Positions 2,589-63,400 of a stretch of 64,000 nt of DNA are shown piece by piece. Under the pieces are notes generated by a model. That model saw only the letters and a list, made by a program, of their open reading frames with translations. It was not told where the DNA came from and made no database searches. The position numbers were made by a program, and so were the translations under genes. Location: contig CH672374.1 of the NCBI GenBank assembly GCA_000153385.1, forward strand, positions 2,234,544-2,298,543. Direction: 5' to 3'. Each line of letters opens with the position of its first letter. Positions within the stretch are counted from its first letter, which is position 1. The stretch comes from Flavobacteria bacterium BBFL7 (GTDB lineage: Bacteria > Bacteroidota > Bacteroidia > Flavobacteriales > Flavobacteriaceae).

Positions 2589-3397
2589 AAGATTTAGGTC
2601 ATAAACGTGGTAAAATGCTCCTTTTTGGTGGCGTTTATAGTAATCTACAAGCATTGCAATCTGTGATGGAATTGGCTCGTCTGCACGATATAGAGCCAGA
2701 AAATTGTATTTGTACCGGTGACATTATAGGTTACTGTGGTCAACCGCAAGAAACTCTAGATACTTTTCAAAAATGGAACCCGTATAGTATTTTAGGTAAT
2801 GTTGAAATACAGTTACGTGATGATCAAGAAGATTGCGGTTGTGATTTTACAGAAGGATCTCGTTGTGATGGGTTTAGTGATGTTTGGTACGCTTTCGCGA
2901 AAGCGAACTTACACACCAACTCAAAAGAATATTTCAACACCTTACCAGACCACATCACTTTTGAATATGGTGGAAGAACTGTAGGAGTGGTTCATGGTAG
3001 CGCAGATTATGTATCACAATTCATATTCAAGTCCAGCGATTGGGCAGAGAAAATAGAAAGTTATCAAGATCTAGTAGTAGACACTATCATAGCTGGTCAT
3101 TGTGGATTGCCATTTAAAGATCAATATGAAAATTTATTATGGCTCAATCCAGGAGTTATAGGCATGCCAGCAAACGATGGTGAGACGCACACATGGGCTA
3201 TGATATTGGATGATGAAGATGGTTTCAACGCACAACACATTCCAGTGGTTTATGATCATCAAACAGCAATTGCTCAAATGAAAAAGCACAAATTGCCACA
3301 AGAATATGCACTAACACTAGAAACTGGAATATGGGATAATATGGAAATCCTACCAGATGAGGAACGACTATTGCAGGGGAAACCACAAGCGTTTTAA
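2573..3397 (+). CDS. Metallophosphoesterase-like protein with altered metal motifs
   Basis: 274 residues with the overall calcineurin-like phosphoesterase plan: a FGGVYSNLQAL start strand, TGDIIGYCGQP, LGNVE, VVHGS and AGHCG. In active members the first motif is DxH, the third GNH(D/E) and the last GHTH. Here these read GVY, GNVE and GHCG, so several metal ligands are absent, while GD and HG remain. A Cys pair (DCGCDF) follows GNVE. I recall bacterial relatives sharing this FGG-YSN / DCGC pattern, so the change may be family-wide. Start at 2573 is kept although it overlaps the symporter; Met at 2615 is the alternative. The 16-bp palindrome is inside it, reading AFAKA. The gene is 3 nt from the rhodanese gene, so probably cotranscribed. 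Confidence 0.7.
   Translation: MVQKVKDLGHKRGKMLLFGGVYSNLQALQSVMELARLHDIEPENCICTGDIIGYCGQPQETLDTFQKWNPYSILGNVEIQLRDDQEDCGCDFTEGSRCDGFSDVWYAFAKANLHTNSKEYFNTLPDHITFEYGGRTVGVVHGSADYVSQFIFKSSDWAEKIESYQDLVVDTIIAGHCGLPFKDQYENLLWLNPGVIGMPANDGETHTWAMILDDEDGFNAQHIPVVYDHQTAIAQMKKHKLPQEYALTLETGIWDNMEILPDEERLLQGKPQAF
2890..2905. repeat. 16-bp palindrome, exact copy 1
   Basis: CGCTTTCGCGAAAGCG, inside the phosphoesterase-like gene, reading Ala-Phe-Ala-Lys-Ala in frame. One of ten exact copies in the window. Confidence 0.95.
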
Positions 3398-3400
3398 TCT

Positions 3401-3883: not shown

Positions 3884-3886
3884 TAG

Positions 3887-4354: not shown

Positions 4355-4358
4355 GATC

Positions 4359-4423: not shown

Positions 4424-5680
4424 CTATAAAGAAAAAGCTTTCTTTACTTCGTCCACATAATCTAATTTTTCCCATGTAAATAACTCTACGGTTTTTTCTA
4501 CACGACCATTATATGGCGATTCAAAAACCAGCGTTTCTGTACGTGGTTCACGTCCCATGTGGCCGTAAGCGGCCGTTTCAGAATAGATAGGGTTTCTTAA
4601 TTTTAATCTACTTTCTATAGCAGCAGGACGCATGTCAAAAATTTGAGCAACCTTTCTAGAGATTTCTCCATCGGTTAAATCTACAGTTGATGTACCATAA
4701 GTATCTACATGTATAGAAGTAGGTTCTACCACACCTATTGCATAGGAAACCTGCACTAAAACTTCAGTAGCTAGGCCAGCCGCAACTAGGTTTTTTGCCA
4801 CGTGACGTGAAGCATAAGCGGCACTACGATCTACCTTAGAAGGATCTTTACCAGAGAATGCTCCACCACCGTGAGCACCTTTACCACCATAAGTATCTAC
4901 TATAATCTTACGTCCAGTAAGTCCAGTATCTCCATGCGGTCCACCTATTACAAATTTACCAGTTGGGTTAATGTGGTAAGTGATTTGGTCATTAAAGAGC
5001 TTTTGAGCATATGCTGGTAATTGCTCAATAACTCTAGGAATTAAAATTTCAACAAGATCTTTTTTAATCTGTGCTAGCATCGCATCATCATCTTCATTAA
5101 AAGGATCGTGCTGTGTAGAGATGACAATAGCATCTATACGTTGCGGTATGTTATCATCATTATACTCAATAGTTACCTGTGATTTTGCATCTGGACGCAA
5201 GTAGGTAATCTGATCCATTTCACGACGCAATTTTGCCAGCTCGATAAGTATTTTATGAGAAATATCTAAGGCTAGTGGCATATAATTATCAGTCTCTGCC
5301 GTTGCATAACCGAACATCATTCCCTGATCTCCAGCACCTTGTTCTTCTTTGTTTTCACGATCAACACCTTGATTAATATCTTGTGATTGTTCATGGATTA
5401 AAGAAATTACACCACAAGAATCGCCGCTAAACTGGTAAGCACCTTTGGTATAACCTATCTTGTTAACCACTTCACGAGCAATGTGTTGTGCGTCTATATA
5501 AGTATTTGATTTTACCTCACCGGCAAGTATCACTTGACCAGTCGTAACCATAGTCTCACAGGCTACTTTTGATTCTGGATCAAAGGCTAAAAAATTATCT
5601 AATAAGGCATCACTGATTTGATCAGCAACTTTATCTGGATGTCCTTCACTTACGGACTCACTTGTAAATAAATATGGCAT
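4424..5680 (-). CDS. metK: S-adenosylmethionine synthetase
   Basis: 418 residues, full length for MetK. It makes SAM from methionine and ATP in the cytoplasm. Signatures: GHPDK at residues 13-17, [12 protein letters not shown] at 115-126, and the glycine-rich [19 protein letters not shown] loop. It is divergent from the metY-metX-hom cluster. Its leader of about 160 nt contains a candidate SAM-II riboswitch (5775-5841) behind a consensus promoter, plus one copy of the 16-bp palindrome just before the start codon. Feedback control by its own product SAM is therefore likely (inference). Confidence 0.97.
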
Positions 5681-5690: not shown

Positions 5691-5706
5691 CGCTTTCGCG
5701 AAAGCG
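5691..5706. repeat. 16-bp palindrome, exact copy 2
   Basis: CGCTTTCGCGAAAGCG in the metK leader, 11 nt upstream of the metK start codon. As RNA it could fold into a stem next to the start. Confidence 0.95.
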
Positions 5707-11935: not shown

Positions 11936-13045
11936 ATGAAGAAATGGATCGTTGTGTTTTGTTATATCGCTTTCGCGAAAGCGTCATTTGCACAAGATTC
12001 TAGCAAGGAAACATTTCCATCTATTCATAATTTTGAAGCTTCTTATTTGTATGGGGCTATATTAGAACATAATCCAGATATCGCACATTTAATAAGTGAT
12101 CATCCCACAGGAATAATGTTGCGTTACAATCGAAAGACATTTGGTGAGAATGAGTGGGAATCTAGATATGGTTACCCAGATTGGGGAATTTCTGGAATCT
12201 ATCAAGATATGAAAAATAGGTTTTTAGGTGAGGCATATGGTGCTTATGGACATTATAACTTTTATTTTTTAAATCGTAATTTAAATCTAAGTATAGGTAC
12301 AGGACTTGCTTGGATGACCAAGCCATTTGATCCAGAAACTAATGCACGAAATAACGCTTATGGTTCTAGTATAACTAGTTCTACATATCTATTAACCACG
12401 TATAAAAGAGAAAATATATATAAAGGTCTTGGCCTACAGGCTGGATTTACTATTGTTCATTATTCAAACGCAAATGTAAAGGCGCCTAATAATTCTACAA
12501 ATTCGTGGTTATTTACAGCTGGTGTAAATTATACCTTGGATTATCAAAAAACTCCTGCATATAAAAAATGGGAAAAGACTCCTTACAAAGAGAAATTAAG
12601 ATTTAATGCAGTGGCAAGATTTGGTGTTAATGAAAGTGATGTTCGTGGTAGTGGGCAATACCCATTTTATACTTTTTCCTTTTATGTTGATAAGCGCATA
12701 GGATTTAAAAGTAGCCTGCATGCAGGAACAGAAATTATGATATCAGAGTTTCTAAGAGAATATAGGGATTATCAAGCAAATAGTTTTCCTGATAGCGGTA
12801 TTACTGGTGATGAAAACTTTCAAAGAATAGGTGTTTTTCTGGGGCATGAATTACACTTAGGAAAAACGAGTGTGATTACTCAGTTTGGGTATTATGTTTA
12901 TAGGCCTATTGCATTTGAAAAGCGTATCTATAATAGAATGGGTTTACAGCGTAGGTTAAATAAAAACCTTTTTGCTAGTTTATCATTAAAATCTCACGGT
13001 GCTGCTGCAGAAGGTGTTAGTCTTGGAATAGGATATAGAATTTAA
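11936..13045 (+). CDS. PagL-like lipid A deacylase / acyloxyacyl hydrolase family outer-membrane protein
   Basis: 369 residues with a signal peptide ending FAQ and many beta strands. The motif VHYSNANVKAPN holds His175 and Ser177, matching the H-x-S catalytic pair and following Asn/Pro of PagL, an outer-membrane barrel that removes a lipid A acyl chain. It is longer than PagL itself, as in many Bacteroidetes members; the extra C-terminal half (FYVDKRIGFKSSLHAGTE) looks like more barrel strands. The 16-bp palindrome encodes AFAKA within the signal peptide. The next gene starts 2 nt after its stop. Confidence 0.7.
   Translation: MKKWIVVFCYIAFAKASFAQDSSKETFPSIHNFEASYLYGAILEHNPDIAHLISDHPTGIMLRYNRKTFGENEWESRYGYPDWGISGIYQDMKNRFLGEAYGAYGHYNFYFLNRNLNLSIGTGLAWMTKPFDPETNARNNAYGSSITSSTYLLTTYKRENIYKGLGLQAGFTIVHYSNANVKAPNNSTNSWLFTAGVNYTLDYQKTPAYKKWEKTPYKEKLRFNAVARFGVNESDVRGSGQYPFYTFSFYVDKRIGFKSSLHAGTEIMISEFLREYRDYQANSFPDSGITGDENFQRIGVFLGHELHLGKTSVITQFGYYVYRPIAFEKRIYNRMGLQRRLNKNLFASLSLKSHGAAAEGVSLGIGYRI
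11968..11983. repeat. 16-bp palindrome, exact copy 3
   Basis: CGCTTTCGCGAAAGCG, inside the signal-peptide codons of the PagL-like gene, again reading Ala-Phe-Ala-Lys-Ala. It puts a Lys late in the hydrophobic region. Confidence 0.95.
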
Positions 13046-15273: not shown

Positions 15274-16176
15274 CTACTCACCAGTCAACTCTTGAAACAT
15301 TGCTTCAAGATTTTTATTCTTTTTATTTAAGGCTAGAATTTTTAATTCATTATCATGTGCAAAGTCAAATACTGCACTTCGCATATCTTCACTTGTTTCA
15401 AAGCGCAGTTCATAAGCAAATCCTGGTAATTGATTCACATCTCTAACTTTGAAAATTTGTTGTAGTAATTCTAATTCTACTCGATAGTCAAATTCTACTT
15501 CTATAACCTGAGCAGCATCACTTTTAAGATTTTTCAAATAATCGTCTGCGACTATTTTACCTTTATTGATAATGATTACTCGATCGCACATCGCTTCTAC
15601 TTCTTGCATGATGTGTGTCGATAATAAGATGGTCGTATGCTTACCTACTTTTTTAATAAGTTGACGTATTTCAACCAGTTGATTAGGATCTAATCCTGTA
15701 GTAGGCTCATCAAGGATAAGTACTTTAGGTTGATGTAATAACGCATTTGCAAGGCCTACACGTTGTTTGTATCCTTTGGATAGTTGACTTATTTTTTTGC
15801 CTACGTGAGAAGTCAGTCCAGTTTCTTCTATAACTTGAGTAATGCGATTTGCGGCATTTTTTAATTTGTATACTCCAGCACTAAAATCTAAATATTCACG
15901 CACATACATCTCAGGATATAAAGGATTGCTTTCAGGTAAATAACCGATAGATTCTTGAACTTCCTTTTGTGCGGTGTTGATGTTATGCCCATTTACCGTT
16001 GCACTACCTTCAGTAGGATTTAGGTAAGTGGTTAAAATACGCATCATGGTAGATTTTCCAGCTCCATTAGGACCTAAAAACCCCACAATTTCACCACTTT
16101 TTATGGAAAAACTTATTTCGTCCAGCGCCTTCTGGCTGCCGTAATACTTAGATATATTTTGAACTTCTATAGACAT
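15274..16176 (-). CDS. gldA: Gliding-motility ABC transporter ATP-binding protein GldA
   Basis: 300 residues. Walker A GPNGAGKST (35-43), the signature QLSKGYKQRV, Walker B VLILDEPTTGLD and switch STHIMQEVEAMCDR are complete. Among ABC ATPases the sequence and length fit GldA, which in flavobacteria works with the membrane proteins GldF and GldG in surface gliding. Those two genes are not in this window. It is divergent from the aromatic-biosynthesis operon and followed by truA. Confidence 0.82.
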   Translation of the reverse strand: MSIEVQNISKYYGSQKALDEISFSIKSGEIVGFLGPNGAGKSTMMRILTTYLNPTEGSATVNGHNINTAQKEVQESIGYLPESNPLYPEMYVREYLDFSAGVYKLKNAANRITQVIEETGLTSHVGKKISQLSKGYKQRVGLANALLHQPKVLILDEPTTGLDPNQLVEIRQLIKKVGKHTTILLSTHIMQEVEAMCDRVIIINKGKIVADDYLKNLKSDAAQVIEVEFDYRVELELLQQIFKVRDVNQLPGFAYELRFETSEDMRSAVFDFAHDNELKILALNKKNKNLEAMFQELTGE

Positions 16177-16204: not shown

Positions 16205-16220
16205 CGCTTCCGCGAAAGCG
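16205..16220. repeat. 16-bp palindrome, one mismatch
   Basis: CGCTTCCGCGAAAGCG, one base off the consensus, in the gap between gldA and the attenuator region. Confidence 0.8.
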
Positions 16221-16455: not shown

Positions 16456-16484
16456 TTTGTTCACAGGGCTTTATGCTAAATTTG
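16456..16484 (+). promoter_or_regulatory. Second promoter downstream of the attenuator
   Basis: TTTG at 16456-16459 and TAAATTTG at 16477-16484 with a 17-nt spacer match the consensus. It would start RNA about 3 nt before the ATG at 16493, by-passing the attenuator and giving an almost leaderless message. Confidence 0.45.
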
Positions 16485-16492
16485 TAAAAATT

Positions 16493-17572
16493 ATGGAGAT
16501 TACAAGAGAAAATAGAAAATGGTTAGATGATTTACAATTGTCTCATCCGCTAGTTATCGCAGGTCCATGTAGTGCTGAGACTGAGGAGCAAGTTCTAGAA
16601 ACCGCACATGCGCTTAAAGATAGCGATGTGACCATGTTGCGTGCAGGTGTATGGAAACCGCGCACTAGACCAGGTAGTTTTGAAGGAGTAGGAGCTATTG
16701 CTTTACCATGGTTAATGCGAGCCAAAAAAGAAACAGGATTACAGATAGCTATTGAGGTAGGTAGTGCTATGCACGTAAAAATAGCACTGCAGTATGATAT
16801 TGATGTTTTATGGTTAGGAGCTCGTACTACGGTAAATCCATTTCTAGTTCAAGAAATTGCAGAGGCTTTAAATGGCACAGATAAAGTGGTTCTTATAAAA
16901 AATCCTGTCAATCCAGATTTGTCTCTTTGGTTAGGTGCCGTAGAGCGTTTGCAAGCGCAAGGGATAAAGAATTTAGGTGTGATTCATAGAGGTTTCTCAA
17001 CTTATAGAAAGACAGATTATAGAAATAATCCACAATGGCAAATACCGATTGACCTTAAGTCAAAACATCCAGATTTACCTCTTATTTGTGACCCATCTCA
17101 CATTACGGGTAATCGAGAAATGATTTTTGACGTTTGTCAGACGGCACTAGATTTGAGATTTGATGGGCTAATGGTGGAAACACACCCTACACCAGAACAA
17201 GCATGGAGTGATGCAGCACAGCAAATCACGCCGTCGACGATGATACAAATCATGGAGGATCTACGTATCAGGAAAAAAGACTTTTCTGATGCCAGCGCAA
17301 CAGAAAATCTAGAACATATCCGTACAGATATTAATAATCTAGACACAAAAATTATAGGATTGCTTAGTCAGCGCATGAAACTAGCAGAGGATATAGGAGC
17401 TTTGAAAAAGAAAGATAATGTTTCTATCTTGCAAAGTGAGATATGGAAACGTACTCTGTCCCGTATGAAAGAACAAGGTGCAAACGGTGGTTTAAGTGAT
17501 TCGTTTATTGATGCGTTTTATAAAGCTATACATCAAGAAAGTATTCACCATCAACAAAAAATGTTTGATTAA
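16493..17572 (+). CDS. Bifunctional DAHP synthase / chorismate mutase
   Basis: 359 residues from ATG 16493; an upstream TTG at 16457 lies in the regulatory region. The N-terminal two thirds is a type I-beta DAHP synthase (AGPCSAE, RAGVWKPRTRPGSFEG, GARTTVNP, CDPSHITGNR). It condenses erythrose 4-phosphate and phosphoenolpyruvate, the entry step of aromatic synthesis. From about residue 260 an AroQ-type chorismate mutase helix domain follows (IRTDINNLDTKIIGLLSQRMKLAEDIGALKK). Fused mutases often give feedback by prephenate or chorismate. A Trp-rich leader and attenuator lie upstream; rsgA and dtd follow on the same strand. Confidence 0.93.
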   Translation: MEITRENRKWLDDLQLSHPLVIAGPCSAETEEQVLETAHALKDSDVTMLRAGVWKPRTRPGSFEGVGAIALPWLMRAKKETGLQIAIEVGSAMHVKIALQYDIDVLWLGARTTVNPFLVQEIAEALNGTDKVVLIKNPVNPDLSLWLGAVERLQAQGIKNLGVIHRGFSTYRKTDYRNNPQWQIPIDLKSKHPDLPLICDPSHITGNREMIFDVCQTALDLRFDGLMVETHPTPEQAWSDAAQQITPSTMIQIMEDLRIRKKDFSDASATENLEHIRTDINNLDTKIIGLLSQRMKLAEDIGALKKKDNVSILQSEIWKRTLSRMKEQGANGGLSDSFIDAFYKAIHQESIHHQQKMFD

Positions 17573-17616: not shown

Positions 17617-18621
17617 ATGAAAGGTACCGTTTATAGATCTACAGGAAGTTGGTATGAAGTAAAGGGAACTGATGATGCGATGTATTCTTGTCGCATTAAA
17701 GGTAAATTTAGGCTTCAAGGAATTAAAAGTACTAATCCTGTTGCGGTAGGAGATCGTGTTGAATTTGAAATTGAGAAAAAAGGAGATGAAGAAATAGGTA
17801 TAATTAAAGAGATTGATGAACGTGATAACTACATTGTGCGTAAATCGGTCAACCTATCTAAGCAAACGCACATCATCGCTGCAAATGTCGATCAGGTTTT
17901 CTTAATAGTCACATTAAACAATCCACCAACATTCACATCATTTATCGACCGATTTTTAGTTAGTGCTGCAGCATATCATATTCCAGTTGTTTTATTATTT
18001 AATAAGGTAGATACTTATAATGATGATCAAGACGAGGTAGTCGTGGATCCTGTGACTGGTGAAGAGATGCTAGCCATGACAGAGCTAGATCAGGTAAGAG
18101 TATTGATGCAATTATATAAATCTATAGATTATGAATGTATAGCTATAAGTGCAGCAACAGGTAAAAATATTGATTTAGTTAAAGAGAGAATGCAAGGTAA
18201 AACCAGCATGTTTGCTGGTCATAGTGGTGCCGGAAAAAGCACTACTGCAAATGCTATACAGCCAGGACTTGAGTTAAAGACCAAAGCAATTAGTTCACAA
18301 CACAAACAAGGTCAACATACAACTACATTTGCAGAGATGTTTGACCTTGATTTTGATGCTCGTATTATCGATACACCAGGTATTAAAGGTTTTGGAGTAG
18401 TGGACCTTGAAAAAGAAGAGATAGGTGGATACTTTCCAGAGATTTTTGAACTTAAACAAGAATGTAAATTTCATAATTGCCTTCATATTGAGGAGCCTAA
18501 ATGTGCAGTTAAAAAAGCTGTAGAAACCGGAGAAATATATTTAAGCCGTTATGAAAGTTATGTACAGATAGTGAATGGTGATGAGGACAATTATCGAGTG
18601 GATAAATACACAACACCATGA
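17617..18621 (+). CDS. rsgA: Ribosome small-subunit GTPase RsgA
   Basis: 334 residues. N-terminal OB-fold, then a circularly permuted GTPase: NKVD (G4) precedes GHSGAGKST (G1) and DTPGIKGFG (G3). The C-terminal zinc knuckle has [14 protein letters not shown]. RsgA helps 30S maturation. It lies 44 nt after the DAHP synthase gene, and its stop overlaps the dtd start by 4 nt (ATGA). Confidence 0.95.
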
Positions 18622-19070
18622 AAGTAGTTTTACAACGTGTCAGTGAAGCAAGTGTTACTATAAATGGTCAAGTCCATGGAGCCATAGATCATGGGTTACT
18701 TGTTTTACTTGGTATTACTATAGAAGACACTCAAGAAGACATCGATTGGCTCGTAAACAAAATTGCCGGCATGCGTATTTTCTCAGATCAAGATGGCAAG
18801 ATGAATCTTAATGTAGTTGACGTAAGTGGAAACGCTTTAGTCATTTCTCAATTCACATTATTTGCAAGCACAAAAAAGGGTAATAGGCCTAGTTTTCTAA
18901 ATGCGGCAAGACCAGAAGTTGCTATTCCACTATATGAAAGTTTTGTAGAAACGCTTTCGCGAAAGCTGAATAAGACAATTCCTACGGGAAAATTTGGAGC
19001 AGATATGAAAGTCGCTCTCGTAAATGATGGTCCCGTGACAATTGTTGTCGATAGTAAAAATAAACTGTAA
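18618..19070 (+). CDS. dtd: D-aminoacyl-tRNA deacylase
   Basis: 150 residues, the family length. [18 protein letters not shown] at the start, SQFTLFAST (catalytic loop) and the cross-subunit [11 protein letters not shown] (Gly-cis-Pro type motif) are diagnostic. It removes D-amino acids wrongly attached to tRNA. Overlaps rsgA by 4 nt. A near-exact copy of the 16-bp palindrome lies inside it in a different reading frame (LSRK), unlike the AFAKA frame seen elsewhere. Confidence 0.95.
18952..18967. repeat. 16-bp palindrome, one mismatch
   Basis: CGCTTTCGCGAAAGCT, inside dtd; last base differs from consensus. Reads Leu-Ser-Arg-Lys. Confidence 0.85.
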
Positions 19071-23467: not shown

Positions 23468-24745
23468 ATGGATTTATTATTAGAAAAGCCCCTAAACTCG
23501 TTAAGTAAAGAAGTTGTCTTTACCATAACAGGCTCAAAAAGTGAGAGTAATCGTTTGCTTATTCTCAAAGCCCTATATCCCGAATTAGAAATTGTCAATC
23601 TTTCTAATAGTGATGATACGGTGCATATGCAAGAAGCTTTACAGTCACAGCAAAGTAATGTCGATATAGGGCATGCTGGTACAGCAATGCGTTTTCTTAC
23701 TGCATATTATGCAAGTAAAGAAGGTCAGGTTTCAATAACTGGTAGCCAGCGCATGCAGCAAAGACCTATAGCAGTATTAGTAGATGCATTAAGGTCTATA
23801 GGTGCAAAAATTGAGTATGTAAATGAAGAAGGTTATCCACCTCTTCAAATTAACGGTGGACATATTGTAGGCACAACCGTTAAGTTAGATGCCAGTGTAT
23901 CTAGTCAATATATTACAGCTTTAATGCTTATAGCGCCATCACTAGATAAAGGATTAAAAATTGAGTTAATAGGTAAGTTAACCTCAAGGCCATATATAGA
24001 AATGACGGTACGTCACCTGCAATCTATAGGAGTGACTGTAAACTGGGCAAAACAAGATGTTGATTCTCAAAAAGATATTCAGACATCATCAGAATTTATC
24101 CAAATTAAACCTTTGGAAAAGATAATTAATAACTCACTAACAGTAGAGAGCGACTGGAGTAGTGCTGGCTATTGGTATAGTTGGGTAGCTTTACAGGACA
24201 TAGGTTATAAGTTGATTTTACAGTACTATTTTAAAGATTCAGTCCAAGGTGATAGTAAGTTAAGTGAATATTATGAGGCATTTGGAGTCCAAACTAGCTT
24301 TGACAATAATCAACTCATATTGATTAAGAGGTCTCATAAGGTAGCACAGCGCATTGTGATTAACCTCGTGAATGAGCCAGATCAAGCACAAACTATATTT
24401 GCTACCTGTTTAGCATTAGGTGTTGACGCTCATCTTACTGGACTTCATACCCTACGCATAAAAGAAACAGATCGTATTGCAGCCTTAAAAGATGTGGGAT
24501 CTCGCTTTCGCGAAAGCGTGATAGAAACCACCCAAGATACTATTACACTAACCTGTGTGCCTCTGGTACAGTATGACGATCCTGTTGTGATTGATACATT
24601 TGACGACCATAGAATGGCTATGGCATTTGCGCCCTTAGCAAGTAAAACATCGTTAATAATAAAAGATGCTGGAGTCGTATCAAAAAGCTATCCGCAGTTT
24701 TGGGATGATTTAAAACAGGTAAATGTCAATATCACAGAAATTTAA
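23468..24745 (+). CDS. aroA: 3-phosphoshikimate 1-carboxyvinyltransferase (EPSP synthase)
   Basis: 425 residues, full length. Substrate-binding GSKSESNRLLIL, GHAGTAMRFLTAYY, QRPIAVL, the late LRIKETDRIAAL and TFDDHRMAMAFAPLA are all present. It catalyses the sixth shikimate step in the cytoplasm. The 16-bp palindrome lies directly after the conserved ETDR region and reads RFRES, a third reading frame. The gene follows the MazG-like gene by 2 nt and precedes queA, which has its own promoter. Confidence 0.95.
   Translation: MDLLLEKPLNSLSKEVVFTITGSKSESNRLLILKALYPELEIVNLSNSDDTVHMQEALQSQQSNVDIGHAGTAMRFLTAYYASKEGQVSITGSQRMQQRPIAVLVDALRSIGAKIEYVNEEGYPPLQINGGHIVGTTVKLDASVSSQYITALMLIAPSLDKGLKIELIGKLTSRPYIEMTVRHLQSIGVTVNWAKQDVDSQKDIQTSSEFIQIKPLEKIINNSLTVESDWSSAGYWYSWVALQDIGYKLILQYYFKDSVQGDSKLSEYYEAFGVQTSFDNNQLILIKRSHKVAQRIVINLVNEPDQAQTIFATCLALGVDAHLTGLHTLRIKETDRIAALKDVGSRFRESVIETTQDTITLTCVPLVQYDDPVVIDTFDDHRMAMAFAPLASKTSLIIKDAGVVSKSYPQFWDDLKQVNVNITEI
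24503..24518. repeat. 16-bp palindrome, exact copy 4
   Basis: CGCTTTCGCGAAAGCG inside aroA, reading Arg-Phe-Arg-Glu-Ser. Confidence 0.95.
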
Positions 24746-31922: not shown

Positions 31923-32041
31923 ACTTCTATTAATTGGAAAATTTAAAATGTTATTCTTAATATTTTAAAAGTAACATTTTTGAATGGTTAACCTTAAACT
32001 AATTCTTAAGGTAGTGTGTGCGGTTTGCATATTGCTATAGT

Positions 32042-32049: not shown

Positions 32050-32054
32050 TAGTC

Positions 32055-33060: not shown

Positions 33061-33076
33061 CGCTTTCGCGAAAGCG
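33061..33076. repeat. 16-bp palindrome, exact copy 5
   Basis: CGCTTTCGCGAAAGCG between ispB and der. No T-run follows, so it is not a typical terminator. Confidence 0.95.
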
Positions 33077-37381: not shown

Positions 37382-37397
37382 CGCTTTCTCGAAAGCG
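37382..37397. repeat. 16-bp palindrome, one mismatch
   Basis: CGCTTTCTCGAAAGCG in the gap after the barrel gene; centre CG to CT change. Confidence 0.8.
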
Positions 37398-44780: not shown

Positions 44781-44800
44781 TCCGCTTTCGCGAAAGCGGA
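44781..44800. repeat. 16-bp palindrome, exact copy 6, extended to 20 bp
   Basis: TCCGCTTTCGCGAAAGCGGA is perfectly symmetric over 20 bp, with the core at 44783-44798. It lies just past the stop of the deoxyhypusine-synthase-like gene. Confidence 0.95.
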
Positions 44801-46775: not shown

Positions 46776-48167
46776 TTAATATCCTAAAATATCGAGCATT
46801 TGTTCTGAGCTTTGTTGCTCTTTAAAAACTCTAGTTTGTATAGCGCCATTTTCATCGCGGTCTATTAAAATATGTTTAGGTGCTGGTATTAAACAGTGTT
46901 GTATACCGCCATATCCACCTATGCTTTCTTGATATGCTCCAGTATTAAAAAAGCCTATGTAAAGCGGTTTATCTTTATGATATTTGGGTAAATAGATAGC
47001 GTTAACGTTTTGCTCGCTGTTGTAATAGTCATCACTATCGCAAGTTAGTCCACCTAATAATACACGTTCATATTCTTCATTCCAGCGGTTTAAGGCTAGC
47101 ATGATAAAGCGTTTACTTATTGCCCACGAGTCTGGTAAGGTTGTGATAAATGAACTGTTGATCATATTCCACTTTTCACGATCGTTTTGTTGTTTTTGAT
47201 ACAACACTTTGTAGATCGCGCCACCACTTTCACCTACTGTAAATGAACCGAATTCTGTAAAAATATGTGGAACGTCCACGTCTGCCTCATCACATACTTG
47301 CTTAATTTGATTCACAATCTCATTGATCATGTACTCATAGTCAAACTCAAATGCAAGCGAGTTCTTAATCGGGAAACCACCACCTATATTCAAACTGTCT
47401 AAGGATGGGCATATTTTCTTAAGGCTGATGTAAACCTTAAGACATTTGTGCAACTCATTCCAGTAGTAAGCATTATCACGTATACCAGTATTGATAAAAA
47501 AGTGCAGCATCTTAAGGGATACCTGTTGGTTCTCCTGAATCTGATTTTTATAGAAAGAAAGAATGTTTTTATAACCTATTCCTAGACGACTGGTGTAAAA
47601 TTCAAACTTTGGCTCTTCTTCACTGGCAATGCGTATTCCTACTTTAAACTTCTTATCAGTAACATTAGTTAGTAAGTTCAGTTCTTCATAGTTGTCAATG
47701 ATAGGAATACAGTTCTTGTGACCAGAGTTGATCAAATCTGCAATATTGTCTATATACTTTTCACGTTTAAAACCATTGCTTATGATATAGGTATCGTCTT
47801 TAATTTTACCTTCAGCTTTTAGTTTTTTGATGATATCTATATCAAAAGCACTGCTGGTTTCTAGATGTATATCATTACTTAATGCCGTATCGAGTACATG
47901 CTTAAAGTGTGAGCTTTTTGTACAATAGCAATAGTGATATTTTGCTTTGTAATCCGCTTTCGCGAAAGCGTCATTAAACCATTTCTGTGCACGCTGAATA
48001 TTATCAGAAATCTTAGGTAAGTAGGTGAATTTTAATGGAGATCCATATTTTTCCACCAGTTCCATCAGATCGATGTCGTGAAAATGAAGAGTTTTGTCTT
48101 CTAGTTTGAACTCTTCCGTCGGGAAGAAGTACGTTTGATCAATGAGATCAATGTATTTAGTATTCAA
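46776..48167 (-). CDS. speA: Arginine decarboxylase, PLP type III fold
   Basis: 463 residues, shorter than the 650-residue enterobacterial SpeA but in line with Bacteroidetes forms. CYCTKSSHFKHV holds the PLP Lys84; HFFINTGIRDN, GGGFPIKNS and the late GLTCDSDDYYN complete the alanine-racemase-type fold. It converts arginine to agmatine, the first step of the polyamine block. One exact palindrome copy encodes AFAKA at residues 67-71. Confidence 0.9.
   Translation of the reverse strand: MNTKYIDLIDQTYFFPTEEFKLEDKTLHFHDIDLMELVEKYGSPLKFTYLPKISDNIQRAQKWFNDAFAKADYKAKYHYCYCTKSSHFKHVLDTALSNDIHLETSSAFDIDIIKKLKAEGKIKDDTYIISNGFKREKYIDNIADLINSGHKNCIPIIDNYEELNLLTNVTDKKFKVGIRIASEEEPKFEFYTSRLGIGYKNILSFYKNQIQENQQVSLKMLHFFINTGIRDNAYYWNELHKCLKVYISLKKICPSLDSLNIGGGFPIKNSLAFEFDYEYMINEIVNQIKQVCDEADVDVPHIFTEFGSFTVGESGGAIYKVLYQKQQNDREKWNMINSSFITTLPDSWAISKRFIMLALNRWNEEYERVLLGGLTCDSDDYYNSEQNVNAIYLPKYHKDKPLYIGFFNTGAYQESIGGYGGIQHCLIPAPKHILIDRDENGAIQTRVFKEQQSSEQMLDILGY
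47955..47970. repeat. 16-bp palindrome, exact copy 7
   Basis: CGCTTTCGCGAAAGCG inside speA (minus strand), reading Ala-Phe-Ala-Lys-Ala. Confidence 0.95.
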
Positions 48168-49492: not shown

Positions 49493-50443
49493 TCAATCTT
49501 TAAATCTCACTGTAGATTGTCGCTCTCGATTCACATGCAGTTGCGTCACATCAGGTCGTGAATAATGACCTACTGTATCAAAGTTCTGTCGCTCTTCTAG
49601 CACTCGATTAAAATCTAGAGTAGCTGTAATTATTTCTTCTTTTCCTATCTGTGGTTCTATGATCCATTCACCATCGGGACCAGCGATGCAGCTGCCACCA
49701 TTAGCAAGTACATCTGGGCATTTATCTAGAATCGCTTCTAGATGAGGCGTGTTTGCCGGGAAGTCTTCTTTAAACATCATGCTTGAAACAGATAATACAT
49801 AAGTGCGTCCTTCACGAGCTATAAATCTTGTAATATCTTTTGTGTTATGATCACTTCCTGGCCAGCAGGCTACATGAAGATTAGTTCCTTGTGCATACAT
49901 GGCCGCACGTGGTAATGGCATCCAGTTTTCCCAGCAGTTCAAACCGCTTACGGTAAAATCTTTGAGTTTATGTGTCACTAAACCGTTTCCATCGCCTGGT
50001 GACCATGTCAAGCGCTCGTCATAGGTAGGTTGTAATTTACGGTGTACACTTTCTATACTTCCATTCTGGTTGATGTATACCATGCTGGCATAAACACTAT
50101 GACCACCACGATCTTGAGGTCTTTCTATAATACCTAAATAAATGGCTATGGAGTTTGCTTTCGCGAAAGCGCATACCGCATCCAGCTCGCCGTCCTCGAT
50201 ACGTATGCTATTGAGCACATAATGTCTGTGCAGTTCCTTTACCTCTTTTTTATTCCAAGCAGCGCCATCAGTTAGCGCAAGCCAAAAAGGATAACCTGGC
50301 AATAATCCTTCTCCAAAAACAACTAATTCAGCATCTTGCTTTTTAGCCTCTTCTAGCGTGGAAAGTATTTTGTCTAATGTCGCTTTCTTATCCAGCCATA
50401 CTGGAGAGATTTGAGCAAGTTCTACGTTGATGAGGTGTTGCAT
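49493..50443 (-). CDS. Nitrilase-family carbon-nitrogen hydrolase
   Basis: 316 residues. Catalytic set Glu45 (VFGEGLLPGYP), Lys136 (HRKLQPTYDERLTW) and Cys170 (GLNCWENWMPL). The CWEN and GYP motifs place it with true nitrilases and nitrile/cyanide-active relatives rather than N-carbamoyl amidases. Such enzymes turn nitriles to acids and ammonia. Its start overlaps the UbiA-type prenyltransferase gene by one base, so expression is coupled with isoprenoid genes. One near-exact palindrome lies inside, reading AFAKA. Confidence 0.88.
   Translation of the reverse strand: MQHLINVELAQISPVWLDKKATLDKILSTLEEAKKQDAELVVFGEGLLPGYPFWLALTDGAAWNKKEVKELHRHYVLNSIRIEDGELDAVCAFAKANSIAIYLGIIERPQDRGGHSVYASMVYINQNGSIESVHRKLQPTYDERLTWSPGDGNGLVTHKLKDFTVSGLNCWENWMPLPRAAMYAQGTNLHVACWPGSDHNTKDITRFIAREGRTYVLSVSSMMFKEDFPANTPHLEAILDKCPDVLANGGSCIAGPDGEWIIEPQIGKEEIITATLDFNRVLEERQNFDTVGHYSRPDVTQLHVNRERQSTVRFKD
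50156..50171. repeat. 16-bp palindrome, one mismatch
   Basis: TGCTTTCGCGAAAGCG inside the nitrilase gene (minus strand), reading Ala-Phe-Ala-Lys-Ala. Confidence 0.85.
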
Positions 50444-52829: not shown

Positions 52830-53885
52830 TTAGCACTTTTTTGCACCTGTGCCTACTTGATCACAAATATAGTGACCATTTTGACAATAACCAGCTAATT
52901 TGCTGTTAATCAATCCTTGCACAGCCTCATTATTTTCATTTGGATATAGCATGTGTACGTTAGCACCAGCATCTAGTGTAAAACACACAGGTATGCCAGT
53001 CTCTTTTCTGAACGCCCATATTTCCTCGATAATCGACAGTGTTTTGGGCTTCATTAATATAAAATAGGGATGTGAGGTCATCATCATAGCATGTAATGTG
53101 AGCGCTTCACTTTCAGTAATTTTGATAAAGGTCTCTAGGTCGCCGTCTTGTAAGGCTATTTTGAGAGTAGATAGATTCTCATGGGCTTGTTCAAATCTCG
53201 CTTTCGCGAAAGCGTGTCCATTCATCAACTCATGTCCTACCGTAGAACTCACCACTTTTTCACCTTTATCTACCAGCAAAATCGTGTCCTGAAAATCCTG
53301 AAAAACAGGATGTAAATAATCGCTTTTATCAATACCGAAGTATTGTGAACTGCCGTCCACCTCATCATGCGTGCCCCAAACTACGGCGCTACCTTTCAAG
53401 CTACGACAAGCACTTCCAGATCCCAATCGAGCCAGAAAAGAAGCTTTATGAAAATCCATTTCCTGACCAGTAAGCGTGCTCTCAAAATCCATCATGCAAA
53501 CCGACATCGCCGCCATACTACTCGCACTACTAGCTATTCCCGAACTATGCGGAAACGTATTGTGTGTGTCTATATCAAAATGATAGTTTGCAATCCATGG
53601 GCAATAGTCAGCAATGCGCTTGAAATAAGCTTCAATTTTAGGAGCAAACTCTGGCTTGGGCTCACCATCATAAGAAATGTTGAAACCGTGAGTTCCTTTA
53701 CTAGCAGTTACTGTAGTAATGGTTCTACAAGCATTTAAAGTAAAACTTATCGACGGATTTGCAGGTAACTGCATACCGTATTTACCCCAATATTTTACGA
53801 GCGCAATATTAGATGGCGCTTGCCATTTTGTAGATAAATGATCCATTAAAGTAAAATCGCCTTCTAACTTAAACTGAGTTTCCAA
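52830..53885 (-). CDS. mvaD: Diphosphomevalonate decarboxylase
   Basis: 351 residues. QAPSNIALVKYWGK at the N-terminus, the phosphate loop SSGIASSASSMAA and the late CFTLDAGANVHMLYP are diagnostic. It makes isopentenyl diphosphate by ATP-driven decarboxylation. Promoter box on the minus strand at 53904-53911 fits the start. One exact palindrome copy reads AFAKA in a helix after HELMNGH. Confidence 0.94.
   Translation of the reverse strand: METQFKLEGDFTLMDHLSTKWQAPSNIALVKYWGKYGMQLPANPSISFTLNACRTITTVTASKGTHGFNISYDGEPKPEFAPKIEAYFKRIADYCPWIANYHFDIDTHNTFPHSSGIASSASSMAAMSVCMMDFESTLTGQEMDFHKASFLARLGSGSACRSLKGSAVVWGTHDEVDGSSQYFGIDKSDYLHPVFQDFQDTILLVDKGEKVVSSTVGHELMNGHAFAKARFEQAHENLSTLKIALQDGDLETFIKITESEALTLHAMMMTSHPYFILMKPKTLSIIEEIWAFRKETGIPVCFTLDAGANVHMLYPNENNEAVQGLINSKLAGYCQNGHYICDQVGTGAKKC
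53199..53214. repeat. 16-bp palindrome, exact copy 8
   Basis: CGCTTTCGCGAAAGCG inside mvaD (minus strand), reading Ala-Phe-Ala-Lys-Ala. Confidence 0.95.
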
Positions 53886-56523: not shown

Positions 56524-57282
56524 TTAATCACCTACTAGATCATGATCTTTCTTAAGTCTAGAGATTTCTTCTAATAAATAAGGTTCTTTGTGAGCTGCAT
56601 AGGCATCTTGTAAAGTGATTAAAGCCTTGAGGTACTCTTTTGTTTTTTGCTCATAAAGAGATGCTAGTTTTTTATAAGTGGTAAGAGAACCACCTATTTC
56701 TATGGCTTTTTTATAACATTTCTCTGCAGCGCGATATTCTTTATCATATTCTTCAATATAGCCTTGAGCTAGATGACCATCTACTGGAGATATTTTTAAA
56801 AGCTCATCGGCATATTTACGACTGGTTCTTAAGGATCCACCTACGATTCCAGGCAACTCACAATATAATTGCACCAGTGCCCATCTAGCCTCTATATGGT
56901 TTGGGTCTAAACTAGCCGCTTTTTTAAGATGAAATTTAATGTCGTCCAGATAACCTAAAGCCTCAAGTTTTGAACTTTCTTTAGCATGTAGGCCTAATGT
57001 GCCACCATATAAAAAATGGTAATCTGCATTAGAGTCATCTAGATCTAATAATCTTTTATAGTATGGAAATGCTTTTTTATAACGTTGAGCATATGATTCA
57101 ATATCGCCTAGTCTGCGCAATATTATGGGGTCTTTTTTGTTGTCTTGCAGTAAGGATTTATATATGGGCTTTGCTGCTTCATATTGCTCAGAGTTAAATA
57201 ATGATTCCGCTTTCGCGAAAGCGTCCTGACTCCAACCCATTGCACTGCACAACAGTAATATGATAAAAAACATTTTTTTCAT
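56524..57282 (-). CDS. Exported TPR-repeat protein
   Basis: 252 residues. Signal peptide ending SAMGWSQDAF region, then at least five tetratricopeptide units (FNSEQYEAAKPIYKSLLQDN, KRLLDLDDSNADYHFLYGGTLG, LKKAASLDPNHIEARWALVQLY, CYKKAIEIGGS). It is a likely scaffold in the periplasm; partners unknown. An exact palindrome reads AFAKA at the junction after the signal peptide. Confidence 0.8.
   Translation of the reverse strand: MKKMFFIILLLCSAMGWSQDAFAKAESLFNSEQYEAAKPIYKSLLQDNKKDPIILRRLGDIESYAQRYKKAFPYYKRLLDLDDSNADYHFLYGGTLGLHAKESSKLEALGYLDDIKFHLKKAASLDPNHIEARWALVQLYCELPGIVGGSLRTSRKYADELLKISPVDGHLAQGYIEEYDKEYRAAEKCYKKAIEIGGSLTTYKKLASLYEQKTKEYLKALITLQDAYAAHKEPYLLEEISRLKKDHDLVGD
57208..57223. repeat. 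16-bp palindrome, exact copy 9
   Basis: CGCTTTCGCGAAAGCG inside the TPR gene (minus strand), reading Ala-Phe-Ala-Lys-Ala right after the signal peptide. Confidence 0.95.
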
Positions 57283-57424
57283 GCTCTAAATTTATCAAAA
57301 AGTGAGCCAATGCCATCAATAGAGTTGTTAAAAAGGAATTCCCTAATTCAAAAGGCTATTTCCCTCATTATAGATTGTAGAATGGTATGAACTATGTGTA
57401 GATTTATACAAGAATTAAAGAATT

Positions 57425-60400
57425 ATGAGACCTAACCACTATATCACTGCTATTTTAATATTGTTTGCGATGCAACAAGGTATTGCACAAAATTTTTATA
57501 TCGATAAATGGCGCGAGGTAGAGCAATTTGAATTACAAGATAGAATTGAAGATGCTACTCAAGTAGTAGATGAGATTTATACATATGCTAGACGTAAAAA
57601 AGACCATGATCAATATATCAAAGTCTTTCTATTTAAGTCAAAATACCAATTGATTAATGAAGAAGAAGCGCAGTATAAAATTATCGCTGAGCTAGATAAA
57701 ATGGTCGTAAAAGCTCAATTCCCTAATAAGAATATTTATAACGGAATAAGAGCTAAATTATTAGATGATTATGCTCGCGCAAATCAATGGAAAATTAGAC
57801 AAAGAACAGCCGTAGATACTGATAATGTAGATTTTAAAACATGGGATGCAACACGTTTTTATAGCGAGATTCATAATAGCTATCAGGCTTCTCTGGATCA
57901 GCCAGAGAAATTAGTTAAGATTCCGCTTAGTGATTACAGTGCTATCATAGGACCTATGGCGCCAGCACGTTTTTTAAGACCTAGCTTACTGGACATATTA
58001 TCGCACCAGGCTTTAAACTTTTATAAAAGTGGCTATTTCAATCTAACAAAACCCAAAGAAGAGTTTGTAATAACTAAAGAAAATGCTTTTCTCAACACAG
58101 CACATTTATTGAAGTTAAAGCGACCAGCTGGTGACACTGTTTTTTCAAAATATGATGTGATGCAGCAGTATGCACAATTAGAAGCCATGCATTTAAAATC
58201 AAATAATGACGCTGCTTTTATTCATGTCATTACAGATCGATTATGGTATGCGCAAAATCAGACAGGACATTATCAGGTTTATGAAGACTTTGAAAAACAA
58301 CTGCAAAGTATAATAACCTCTTATGATGCTAATCCAGCCGTTACTGAGGCTTATTATTATCTAGCTTTATATCATCAAAACTTAAGTAATCAATTAAGTA
58401 AAGTACAGCAACTTGATCATAGACAGAAGGCTATCCAATTAGTGAATAAAGCTATTGAATTATATCCTAAATCCTATGGAGCTGCGTTGTGCGAGCAGTT
58501 GAAAAATCAGATGTATCAATCGAGCATCAATGTTCAGGTTGAAGATTTAATTATTCCTAATAGACCACATCGTGGAGTAGTCAATTATAGAAATGTAGAA
58601 CAGATTGATTTATTCTACATTAAAGTCTCTGTAGATGAAGATTTGCGAGATTTGAGATTTGCAGACAGTTTATATCAACAGTTTATCGATAAAGCTATTG
58701 ATTCTCAAAATATTGCTCACCAAGAATCTATTCAACTACCTAAAGGCGACGACACCTTTAATCATACCTATGAATATATTGCGCCAGCTATTGAAAAAGG
58801 TCGTTATGTGGTGATGGCAAAAACCGATAAAGCTGATGAAGTGAAATACGCACATACTTTCATAACAGTGACTAATCTGACCTTGTTTAAAAAGAATAAT
58901 AGCATGGGAACAGAACTACTAGTAAAAGATAGAAGTACTGGTAAGCCTATAGAAGGAGCTGTTATTCAAGTAGCTTATAATAAAAAATCAAGGAATTTTA
59001 AAACAGATCGTGACGGCATAGCGATGTATAATATAAAAAGCATTAGAGGTCGTCAAGAAGTTTTAATTAGCAAAAATGGAGATAGTTTATCTACAAACTA
59101 CTATGGATATTATCGCGATAAAAATGATGTAGCTGTAAATCAAGAACTTTTTGATGTGAAAACTTTCACTTATCTAGACCGAGCGATTTATAGACCAGGA
59201 CAAACGGTTTATTTTAAATCGATTCTATTAAAGAAAAAAGAAAGTGATCAGCATTCGAGTGTTGTGTCTAATGAACTTCTAGAAATCTATGCCGAAGATG
59301 TCAATGGCACAGAGATTTATAGAACTAAGTTAAAGACCAATGAGTTTGGTAGTATCCATGGATCTTTCGAGATTCCACAAGATGTACTTACAGGAGAATT
59401 TACATTATATATAGAAGAACCAGATGAAGAAACGGCATTTTCCAATACTGTAGATGATTGGGAAGATGGTGAAATCAACTTTAAAGTAGAGGAGTATAAA
59501 CGTCCTACTTTTGAAGTAGATTTTGAGGATATTACTGCCGCCTACAAGCTAGGTGATAGTGTTACGGTTTCAGGATTTGGGAAAGCCTTTTTAGGTAGCA
59601 ATGTAACAAATGCAACAGTAACCTATAAAGTGTTGAGAAGCTATAATTACTCAAGATGGCGCAGTGGTTATTATGGGAATAATGAAAAAGTAATCTTTCA
59701 AGGAGATACGACCACAAACGATAAAGGTGTTTTTGAAATAAAATTCCTAGCTGAAAACGATATAGACGCAGACGCAAAATATCAACCAGTTTACACCTAT
59801 AAAATAGTAGCAGAGGTTACTGATCTTAATGGAGAAACTAGAAGTTCTAGCACATCCATGCGAGTAGGAACAAATGCTATTCAAATAGCTTCTCAATTGC
59901 CTTATCAATTTAGTATAGAGCAAAACAGTTTTAAAGTAGGCGTTAAAAATTTAAACGGTCAGTTTATCAATGGTAAACTTATCGTTGAATTGCGTAAAAA
60001 ACAGCAAGCGTCTCATGTTATTATCCCATCAGGATTGCCACAAACAGAGTTTCAGGAAATTGATAATATAACTTACCGCAAGACATTCCCGTATGCCGAA
60101 TTAAGAACCGACGAAATAGAAACAGACTGGAAAAAAGCACCTATTGTTTTCAAAAAAGAGCTCACTACAGATTCGTTAACAACTGTAGAGCTTCCAATAA
60201 CAGAGAACTGGGATAATGGTGCTTATTATGTTTACATAAGAGCTGTAGAATCGGATCAAAGTTTTGGTAATGAAGATGATGTGGCGGATTCTAGAGTAGA
60301 AAAAAGTCTTTGGGCAAATCTAGACCTACCATTACAACCAGAACTTATTTCTATTCATGGTGAGTTTACCAAAGAAGCTGCGGTGTTCAATATGTATACT

Positions 60401-63400
60401 TCTATGAATGGTATTTATGCAACTCTTACCTTATGGACGGATAAAGAGTTGATAGAAGAAAAACTCATTTTCCTTAAAAAAGGAAAAACAGAATTAACAT
60501 ATTCATGGTCTCAAATTAACGGAAAGCAAATAAGTATTCAATTACAAGTTCAAAAAGAAAATGGATTTGAACAAACTAATACGGCTACAGTAGAAAAACC
60601 AGTAGATCCAGTAGCTCAATATCAAATCATAACACAAAGCTTTAGAAATAAATTACAACCTGGCAGTGAAGAAACTTGGTCATTTACCATAAAAGATGAT
60701 AATCAAATTCCTATGCAGGCTGAGGTGCTAGCGAGTATGTATGATAAGAGTCTGGATGAGTTTGCAACGGCAAATTGGAGTGCGCCATTTATAAGTAATA
60801 ATGAGTATTCTTTTTCTCCTAATTTTTATCAAAACACTTCTTATAATCGAGTGCAATCGCTGTATGTTCAATTTCCACGAATCAACTTCAATACTTCTTT
60901 AAAATATGATGACTTGTTCTATTTCGGTTTATCCTTTAATGATAATCGATATAAAAGACAATCTTATAAAAACACGCTGTTGAATAAAATAATCACAGCT
61001 GGTAAAGAAGATGGTTTTGTAACAGGTAAAATTACTGATATAAATGGCAATCCGTTATATGGAACTTTAGTTGTTGTTAAAGGCACAAAAATTGGCGCGC
61101 TAGTTGGAGCAAATGGTCTTTACAAAATAAAAGCCGACATTAATGATGTACTAGTTTTTAACCATGAGTTTCACAAACCTGTAGAAATTAAAATTAAAAA
61201 AGCAGGAATTATTAATGCTGTTTTAGCTGCTGATTTAAACAGCTCGAATGATTATATCAATAATGATGTTTTCTTCACTATAAATAGAAGCAGTCGCGGT
61301 TATGGTGATTTCAACGACTTCAATTATTATCGAGGTAATGCTTATACTAAAAGCAAAATTGGCTCTGACGGAATGATATCAGTAATTGATGAACTTGGAA
61401 TTGTTTATGATACTTTAGCAAATGGTAAAACAATTGCGCGAGCGCTTCCTATTGGAATAGAGTCTGGTGATTTAGATGCTGTAACTGTAATAGGCTATAG
61501 GTCAGATAGAAAAGCAAATTCTAATGTGTCTTCTGTCACAATATCAAGTGAATATATAGTGGATAGACCCAACGCTAGCACAATACAAAGACTTCAAGGT
61601 CAGGTTCCTGGATTAATGGTCCAAACTAACACTGGTCAGCCTGGTGCTAATTCTTTAATTCAATTAAGAGGAATTGCTTCAGTAAATGGTGGTACTGAAC
61701 CATTAATTATAGTCGATGGAGTACCAGTAGATGAAGATTTTTTTAGTGGATTGAATCCTAATAATATTTTTGAAACTGCTATATTAAAAGATGCCGCCGC
61801 AACATCAATTTACGGTAGTCGTGGAGCAAATGGCGTTATCATCATTTCCACAAAAGATGGTGTAACTGCAAATGATTTAGTGCTACGGGAAATGAATCTC
61901 AACAATGTTCAAGCCCGTAAAAACCTCCAAGAAACGGCATTTTTCTTACCAGAACTACGTACTGATGAAAACGGAAATCTCAAATTCTCATTCACATCTC
62001 CAGAGGCATTAACCCAATGGAAATTGAGATTACTAGCGCACGACAAAAAAGGAAAAACAGCACAATTAGAACAACTGGTGGTGACTCAAAAGGAACTCAA
62101 CGTTATACCTAATGCACCACGTTTTTTAAGAGAAACAGACACCATACGTTTCTCTACAAAAATCGCAAACCTGTCAGACGCTGCTATGGATGGAACGGCA
62201 CGTTTACAGCTTTTTGATGCTATGACTATGAAAGCAATTGATGCTGAGCTAGGCAACGTAAATAACAACAGAGATTTTACCATAGAAAAAGGTGGCAACA
62301 CCTCAGTAAACTGGACTTTTAGAATTCCGCTAGGGACGCAAGCGGTAACTTATCGTGTGGTGGCTGCTGCAGGAAACTTTTCTGATGGTGAGGAGAATAC
62401 CTTGCCGGTACTTTCTAACCGCATGCTAGTGAGTGAGTCGAGAGCGCTTTGGGTACGTGCAGGTGAAACCCAAACTGCTGTTATGGACAACTTGTTAGAG
62501 AGCGATTCTGGTACAATGGCACATCATCAAATGGTGTTTGAGTACACTTCAAATCCATCGTGGTATGCGATTAAATCGTTGCCTTATTTAATGGAATATG
62601 AGCATGAATGTGCAGAGCAAACTTTTTCTCGCTACTATGCAAACGCTATGGCGCATCATATTTTAACGAGTAGTCCTAAGGTAAAAACCGTTTTTGATAG
62701 TTGGGCACAAAACGGTACTAATGTGAGTGCACTTGAGAAAAATGAAGAATTAAAAACAGTAATGCTATCGCACACGCCATGGCTGCGTGATGCACAAAGT
62801 GAAGCGCAAAAACAACAGCGACTCGCCACATTATTTGATCTGGCCGAAACTGCTAAACAGAAAAAGAAGACACTTGCAAAATTAGAAAAACTACAAGGTG
62901 ATTCTGGTGGTTTTCCATGGTTTACTGGTGGATATACTAATGAGTATATCACGCGTCACATTGCCGCTGGATTAGGTCATATGAAAAAATTGGGTATTAA
63001 AAATGATGACACGCCACAGACCGATCGCATGTATCAAAATGCGATAGATGCATTGGATAAAGAATGGCTCAAACGTTTTAACAAGTATTTAGAAAGAAAC
63101 AAATCGCTAGAGAACTACAGCTATAGTAATGCTTTTTGGCATTATCTATATGCGAGAAGTTTTGATGTTGTTAGTATTGAGAAGAATGATCAATTGTTGC
63201 AGGAAGCTGTAGGGTACGCTTTCGCGAAAGCGGAAAAATCACATTCCTCACAGCCACTATATACAAAGTTGCTTATGGCCATCACACTGCACCGCAACGG
63301 AAAAACTAAGCTCGCCAGCTCGATCATGGAAGGATTGAAACAAACCGCCGTTAAAAGCGATGAAAATGGCATGTACTGGAAAGAAAATAAGAATAGCTGG

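Follow-up and report, generated by a model that had tools for sequence, protein, structure and literature searches.

A highly iterated 16-bp palindrome of Nonlabens and Dokdonia as a candidate site of a chromosome-wide DNA-binding protein

Why does one 16-bp palindrome recur again and again, in genes and between them, along a stretch of flavobacterial DNA? The stretch in question, here called the window, comprises 64,000 nucleotides of contig CH672374.1 from Flavobacteria bacterium BBFL7 and contains ten exact and four one-mismatch copies of the palindrome (the 16-mer in the following), and none occurred in 100 dinucleotide shuffles. A sequence-only reading made earlier by a model had listed the same 14 positions, all of them correctly, and its expectation that such a word should be absent by chance agrees with the shuffles. 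It had also called the motif highly iterated, a view that counts at chance level or copies limited to the window would have spoken against. In the whole genome (3,103,424 bases in 7 contigs) we counted 423 exact copies and 612 copies with at most one mismatch, and the reversed-pattern control gave zero in both cases. A chance origin of the copies, which are found neither in the shuffles nor with the reversed pattern, and a feature of the window only are both ruled out by these numbers. The 16-mer is abundant, conserved, symmetrically flanked, kept apart from further copies, evenly dense in the part of the genome analysed and dense in few genera. It points to a chromosome-wide signal, and at about an even chance we regard it as the site of a putative symmetric DNA-binding protein with a role in the architecture or maintenance of the whole chromosome.

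The mvaD protein of the window has as its closest named matches two records of N. ulvanivorans (96%), and judged by this similarity the genus of the genome is taken as Nonlabens. From a draw of 59 genomes, the 22 others of the same genus carry 180–737 exact copies each, and 35 of the 36 genomes from outside the genus have none, the last one (G033) having 4. A scan of 397 Flavobacteriaceae genomes, using a pattern with one degenerate pair, gave a match in 69, four of them from the same genus; beyond it the motif is dense only in G250 (641 copies) and G234 (170), which represent two other genera, and the remaining 63 matching genomes have 1–14 copies. All ten named Dokdonia loci, which are loci and not whole genomes, contain at least one exact copy. 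Among 395 genomes drawn from the phylum a match was present in 11, namely this genome and ten others with one or two copies each. Other palindromes repeated in single named loci free of the motif were only AT-rich 12-mers with two copies.

Is the 16-mer itself conserved, or only the DNA around it? Orthologous sites of the window and of five other genomes of the genus (80 kb each) were compared, with random 16-mers as control; self hits and alignments reaching less than 26 bp beyond either end of the 16-mer were excluded and one high-scoring segment pair (HSP) was used per pair. At a flank identity of at least 85% the sites were identical in 58 of 64 pairs (control 168/570), at 75–85% in 53 of 74 (34/960) and below 75% in 32 of 45 (4/569), the pairs being counted in both directions and related by descent and hence not independent. 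A gap was present in 3 of the 183 site pairs. The site in mvaD, a gene that we picked among those bearing a site, was compared in the same manner with a limit of 21 bp beyond either end (self hits excluded, one HSP per pair), and results are given for the sites of the own region, L005 and L017 only. Eight of the 11 Nonlabens loci and eight of the 10 Dokdonia loci carry it in exact form, the latter eight at a flank identity of 69–74%, and a further Dokdonia locus has a single mismatch; where the site is missing (four mvaD loci), 7–9 positions differ, in register. Nine sites are alignable between Dokdonia and Nonlabens, eight of them being the mvaD site, because the Dokdonia loci were retrieved by mvaD, and the ninth, in a gap, having two mismatches. 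For this comparison (one HSP per pair) and that of the islands described below the same end limits applied, and an alignment also had to include at least 40 or 60 flank positions, respectively.

Over 2.06 Mb of the genome (about two thirds), to which the following counts refer, 272 copies are exact and 127, 28 and 21 have one, two and three mismatches, followed by a chance-like rise; the changes in the one-mismatch copies are mostly at the outermost positions 1 and 16 (83/127). The 16-mer is maintained at the DNA level while the surrounding DNA changes, and differences between sites arise by substitution and rarely by gaps. From the earlier proposal that it is kept or spread at the DNA level, the keeping inside conserved genes stands and the spread by insertion falls with the scarcity of gapped pairs. 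The four mvaD loci without the site, which are substituted in register, speak against insertion as well.

Beyond the core, both edges show the same outward profile, rich in A and poor in G, which is strong up to about position 17 and weak up to about 30, and the common A-rich flank reaches about 25 bp from the centre of the palindrome. This profile is seen too in other Nonlabens, in Dokdonia together with G250, and in the islands. The idea that the flanks extend the symmetry of the palindrome had to be abandoned: over 20 positions at the 272 exact sites the match between the two arms is about that of shuffled partners, only the first base showing a clear excess (0.438 vs 0.359), and the symmetry is one of A-rich composition. 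Only 2 of the 28 two-mismatch copies are compensated, a figure for which no chance level was computed. Because the arms do not match beyond the first base and compensated copies are few, the data favour two independent half-sites rather than a hairpin, and a hairpin or cruciform was rejected, no arm pairing being found beyond the core. The 3' half, GCGAAAGC, resembles the very stable DNA mini-hairpin d(GCGAAAGC), with no evidence here that this is of relevance. In the flanks of the own genome, G and A show excess power at 9.8–11.2 bp in most rows; the strongest A period is 17.0–19.7 bp, and since it differs from this and is not seen in 232 half-sites of other Nonlabens, we make no claim of flank periodicity.

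The spacing of the copies is far from random. Not one of the 269 intervals between exact copies is shorter than 1500 bp, where 51.6 are expected if the mix of genic and intergenic sites is preserved; when one-mismatch copies are included, 7 of 396 are that short (105.6 expected). The pair correlation starts at 0.00 in the first kb, reaches 0.19 in the second and 0.42 in the third, and is about 1 thereafter, with no periodic peak. Counts in 38 segments of 50 kb give a dispersion index of 0.42, and the density shows no trend along the contigs analysed. Of the 73 exact intervals in the regions from five other Nonlabens (80 kb each), two are below 1500 bp (18.3 expected). In Nonlabens the copies avoid each other within about 2–3 kb, without a period. 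The largest site-free interval, which includes masked bases, was not considered. At the start of contig C2 of this genome (L086:1-20000), where no copy with at most one mismatch was found, there is an integron- or cassette-like array of genes that are mostly single and point the same way, with about ten related repeats, each several hundred bases long, between them.

Where do the copies lie with respect to genes? According to the list of open reading frames (ORFs), nine of the copies in the window are in reading frames and five are intergenic:

2890..2905, exact, in the metallophosphoesterase-like gene 2573-3397 (+), frame AFAKA
5691..5706, exact, intergenic, immediately upstream of ORF 4424-5680 (-)
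11968..11983, exact, in the PagL-family gene 11936-13045 (+), frame AFAKA
16205..16220, one mismatch, intergenic between the divergent ORFs 15274-16176 (-) and 16457-17572 (+)
18952..18967, one mismatch, in the D-Tyr-tRNA deacylase gene (dtd) 18618-19070 (+), frame LSRK
24503..24518, exact, in the EPSP synthase gene (aroA) 23468-24745 (+), frame RFRES
33061..33076, exact, between ORFs 32016-33032 and 33151-34452
37382..37397, one mismatch, directly past an ORF with its end at 37367
44783..44798, exact, intergenic between ORFs 43118-44653 and 44810-45778
47955..47970, exact, in the Orn/Arg-type decarboxylase gene 46776-48167 (-), frame AFAKA
50156..50171, one mismatch, in the carbon-nitrogen hydrolase gene 49493-50443 (-), frame AFAKA
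53199..53214, exact, in the mvaD-type gene 52830-53885 (-), frame AFAKA
57208..57223, exact, in the TPR gene 56524-57282 (-), frame AFAKA
63217..63232, exact, in the long open frame 57419-64000 (+), frame AFAKA

The nine genic copies read AFAKA seven times, LSRK once (18952) and RFRES once (24503), the same tally that had been given from the letters. Among the 272 exact copies 166 are genic, 105 intergenic and 1 lies on an edge, with ORF calls leaving about 8% of the DNA as intergenic gaps; the genic frames are AFAKA (107), RFRES (39) and LSRK (20). The intergenic copies fall into 58 tandem, 29 divergent and 18 convergent gaps, as gap length predicts (P 0.25), and in tandem gaps they are shifted towards the end of the upstream gene (80 copies with at most one mismatch, Kolmogorov–Smirnov P 1.3e-5). 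As the gap types follow the background and the tandem copies lie near the end of the upstream gene, this placement is that expected of a site avoiding harm and not of an operator or terminator. Conserved genes had been said to tolerate the 16-mer, and the results support its upkeep at the DNA level inside such genes.

In several of the low-count genomes the copies form clusters, and spacings of 933 and about 2446–2481 bp recur across genera. We retrieved 16 clustered loci from other Flavobacteriaceae (L051–L066) and scanned nine proteins from four of them: an integrase (L058), two ACR_tran efflux pumps, an outer-membrane efflux protein, two P-type ATPases, a FUR-family protein, a multicopper oxidase and a TonB-dependent receptor. 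These loci are probably mobile islands for metal resistance, to which the motif was added while they resided in a motif-rich host, and as such clusters suggest, the 16-mer may tag DNA derived from motif-rich genera. Between genomes the island sites are identical in 8/8, 27/35, 34/77 and 0/14 pairs as flank identity drops from at least 95% to below 75%, four of the last 14 having one mismatch. In Nonlabens the last two classes give 53/74 and 32/45, and the difference is no more than suggestive of a weaker upkeep outside a motif-rich host, the island sites at 75–85% being still far more often identical than their controls (59/2274). From 2.9 million viral contigs, 30 gave 41 matching stretches. 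One viral-labelled contig of 37 kb, IMGVR_UViG_3300040781_000495 (L248, L265, L268), bears six exact copies; it may represent host DNA or else a phage infecting a motif-rich host, which may also hold for some of the other matches. Two Nonlabens phages of similar gene order (71 kb) contain no site with at most three mismatches, compared with about 14 at host density.

A variant, CGCTTCCGCGGAAGCG, occurs in few scattered copies in other genera (L221–L227, L032). Each of the seven retrieved copies (L221–L227) lies in a long reading frame and reads ASAEA, several of these frames look like housekeeping enzymes, and the flanks have a similar outward A-rich, G-poor profile (from 16 half-sites only). 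Its 14-mer core was found in 29 of 299 genomes of the family, with 1–3 copies except for 9 and 13 in genus g72, and the reversed control gave one match per strand, in one genome. Possibly CGCTTCCGCGGAAGCG is a sparse dialect of the 16-mer.

What could keep such a word in place? In the model that we put first, the 16-mer would be the core of an about 50-bp, two-fold symmetric site for one sequence-specific, probably dimeric protein, which would act on the whole chromosome, in its architecture or in genome maintenance, and not on single genes. Sites would be gained and lost through ordinary substitutions and tolerated where they cost least, in intergenic gaps or, within genes, in the AFAKA reading. 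About one site per 5 kb would be kept, because a second one within about 2–3 kb would add little. The dimer would act over a few kb on either side of its site. We infer the protein, its dimeric form, the redundancy of nearby sites and the architectural or maintenance role from a site that is two-fold symmetric, conserved, present about once per 5 kb and locally exclusive; a nucleoid, segregation or repair protein, as named in the sequence-only reading, is a possible reader.

Several points weigh against this model. No reader protein was found, and most of the features that it explains would be expected of uptake signals too. The exclusion has exceptions: G003 contains pairs 768 and 996 bp apart, two Dokdonia loci show a pair spacing of 609 bp, and of the 29 intervals in the pieces from Dokdonia, G250 and G234 (related loci counted separately) six fall below 1500 bp. 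At 75–85% flank identity the island sites are identical in 34/77 pairs vs 59/2274 controls, which exceeds simple decay without a reader and thus counts against the model unless the sites left their host recently. A search for ParB (PF02195) in 16 genomes gave one per genome in 15 of them and thus no Noc-like paralogue; a Noc-type ParB was rejected as reader, the only genome with two being the motif-poor G033. The single ParB gene of the own genome is located at C2:330998-331276. Canonical parS, searched for by its consensus, has no match with at most one mismatch in the 2.06 Mb and one match with two, from which no conclusion is drawn. The second ParB-domain frame of G033 (616 aa; G033:C18:76088-76363) lies on the contig that bears the clustered copies of this genome.

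Taken more broadly, and with somewhat better than even confidence, we propose an undescribed chromosome-wide system in Nonlabens and Dokdonia, with sparse relatives of its site in other Flavobacteriaceae, that would be either a nucleoid protein with hundreds of dispersed, mutually spaced anchor sites or a recognition of self-DNA by a symmetric signal that does not involve a type IV pilus.

A drive by uptake or recombination is a close rival of the binding-site model. If motif-bearing fragments were preferred in uptake or recombination, the 16-mer would accumulate by molecular drive as for DNA uptake sequences (DUS) and uptake signal sequences (USS), and the exclusion zone would mirror the length of the exchanged fragments; we regard this as possible, though well short of an even chance. 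Exclusion without a period, permissive placement, origin by substitution, AT-rich flanks, sparse related variants in other genera and the two closely similar phages free of sites would all fit. Many traits of DUS and USS are common to the 16-mer (PMC2397512, PMC7811141, PMC1939737; here and below, excerpts of these papers): USS reportedly originate by point mutation and are rare in newly acquired segments (PMC7811141), DUES are described as frequent in non-coding DNA (PMC1939737), and the spacing of DUS is reported to match conversion fragments, new DUS often facing alleles with many mismatches (PMC2397512). However, DUS and USS are non-palindromic (PMC1939737), and the published accounts of their spacing conflict, it being even (Karlin, as cited), less even than that of a compaction site (PMC1939737) or uneven (PMC7811141). 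Regions near DUS are reported to be more divergent (PMC2397512), unlike the DNA near the 16-mer, whose divergence is slightly lower or the same: in the 500 bp around sites, identity was nominally raised in two comparisons, 0.882 vs 0.867 (P 0.018) and 0.893 vs 0.873 (P 0.036), and unchanged in two others (P 0.35, 0.20), a result confounded by gene conservation, with G001 and L002 being one contig. ComEC (PF03772) is present in 16/16 genomes but does not discriminate, since motif-poor genera carry it too, and the known pilus-type uptake route was not seen, as PF00437 gave no match above the cut-off in any of the 16 genomes (partial sub-threshold matches in all 16). In the literature searched, no paper combining Nonlabens with natural competence was found.

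An improbable alternative is a HIP1-like site of an orphan DNA methyltransferase or a lost restriction system, in which a part of the core, for example its centre TCGCGA, would be methylated. The 16-mer is, as HIP1, a palindrome of very high iteration in genic and intergenic DNA, and its core includes the palindromic hexamer TCGCGA, a type of sequence usable by type II enzymes. We know of no methyltransferase site as long as the 16-bp core with its symmetric flanks. For HIP1, two orphan methyltransferases have been named (excerpts of PMC4390886). In 19 Nonlabens searched, the families PF00145, PF01555 and PF02086 are each patchy, and G006, G007 and G009 lack all three yet have 579, 680 and 427 copies; a genus-wide C5, N4/N6 or D12 methyltransferase was therefore rejected for these three families, and the link to such an enzyme is not borne out for them.

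A regulatory operator, a terminator or a hairpin/RNA element is very unlikely, as the enrichment that would speak for it (105/272 exact copies intergenic though gaps are about 8% of the DNA) comes with gap types as length predicts (P 0.25), with 166/272 copies in genes, and with arms unpaired beyond the core and 2/28 two-mismatch copies compensated (no chance level computed); operator and terminator were rejected for the missing promoter or terminator gap bias and the genic majority. Hardly credible at all is a mobile or REP/RAYT-type repeat (repetitive extragenic palindrome with its associated transposase) spread by insertion, for which the hundreds of copies and the clusters in apparent mobile islands of other genera could be quoted, as gaps are found in just 3/183 site pairs, the four site-free mvaD loci are substituted in register and copies repel each other instead of clustering, so that insertion of REP/RAYT elements or miniature inverted-repeat transposable elements is contradicted by the ungapped pairs, RAYT and transposase genes not having been searched for.

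The 16-mer was not found in the literature searched. The main text of Elhai 2015 (PMC4390886) mentions neither Nonlabens nor Bacteroidetes nor 'other bacteria', and among the papers found on Nonlabens or Dokdonia with palindromes no title or beginning of an abstract is about such a motif. The 16-mer shares with HIP1 (GCGATCGC, cyanobacteria) a short palindrome, very many copies in genes and gaps and a restriction to certain lineages (see also PMC4390886), and the resemblance that the sequence-only reading had seen holds as a phenomenon, that of a highly iterated palindrome in genes and gaps. It differs in length (16 bp vs 8 bp), sequence, A-rich symmetric flanks, an exclusion of 2–3 kb and the lack of a genus-wide methyltransferase among PF00145, PF01555 and PF02086. 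With the DUS of Neisseriaceae and the USS of Pasteurellaceae it has in common, as far as the excerpts go, a near-perfect core, lineage-specific over-representation, origin by substitution, permissive placement and variants in other lineages, and with USS also AT-rich flanks; unlike them it is two-fold symmetric, has a longer core and a strong short-range exclusion, and occurs in a Bacteroidota host with the PF00437 ATPase above cut-off in 0/16 genomes. The parS and Noc sites of the ParB family have a 16-bp palindromic core too, with dimer-type half-sites, from which the 16-mer is set apart by hundreds of dispersed copies, a single ParB in 15/16 genomes and a different half-site. Chi of E. coli (GCTGGTGG) is short and directional, in contrast to a palindrome with flanks. 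Its density is similar, with 1008 copies in 4.64 Mb (excerpt of PMC1939737). The 16-mer resembles HIP1 and DUS/USS, is assigned to neither and belongs to the known phenomenon of the highly iterated genomic word. HIP1 and similar iterated words have long been known, their function being unsettled. The 16-mer joins them as an independent example, in which the core is longer, the flanks are symmetric, an exclusion zone has been measured and conservation is strong. As its genus includes named strains, a reader protein could be pulled down directly.

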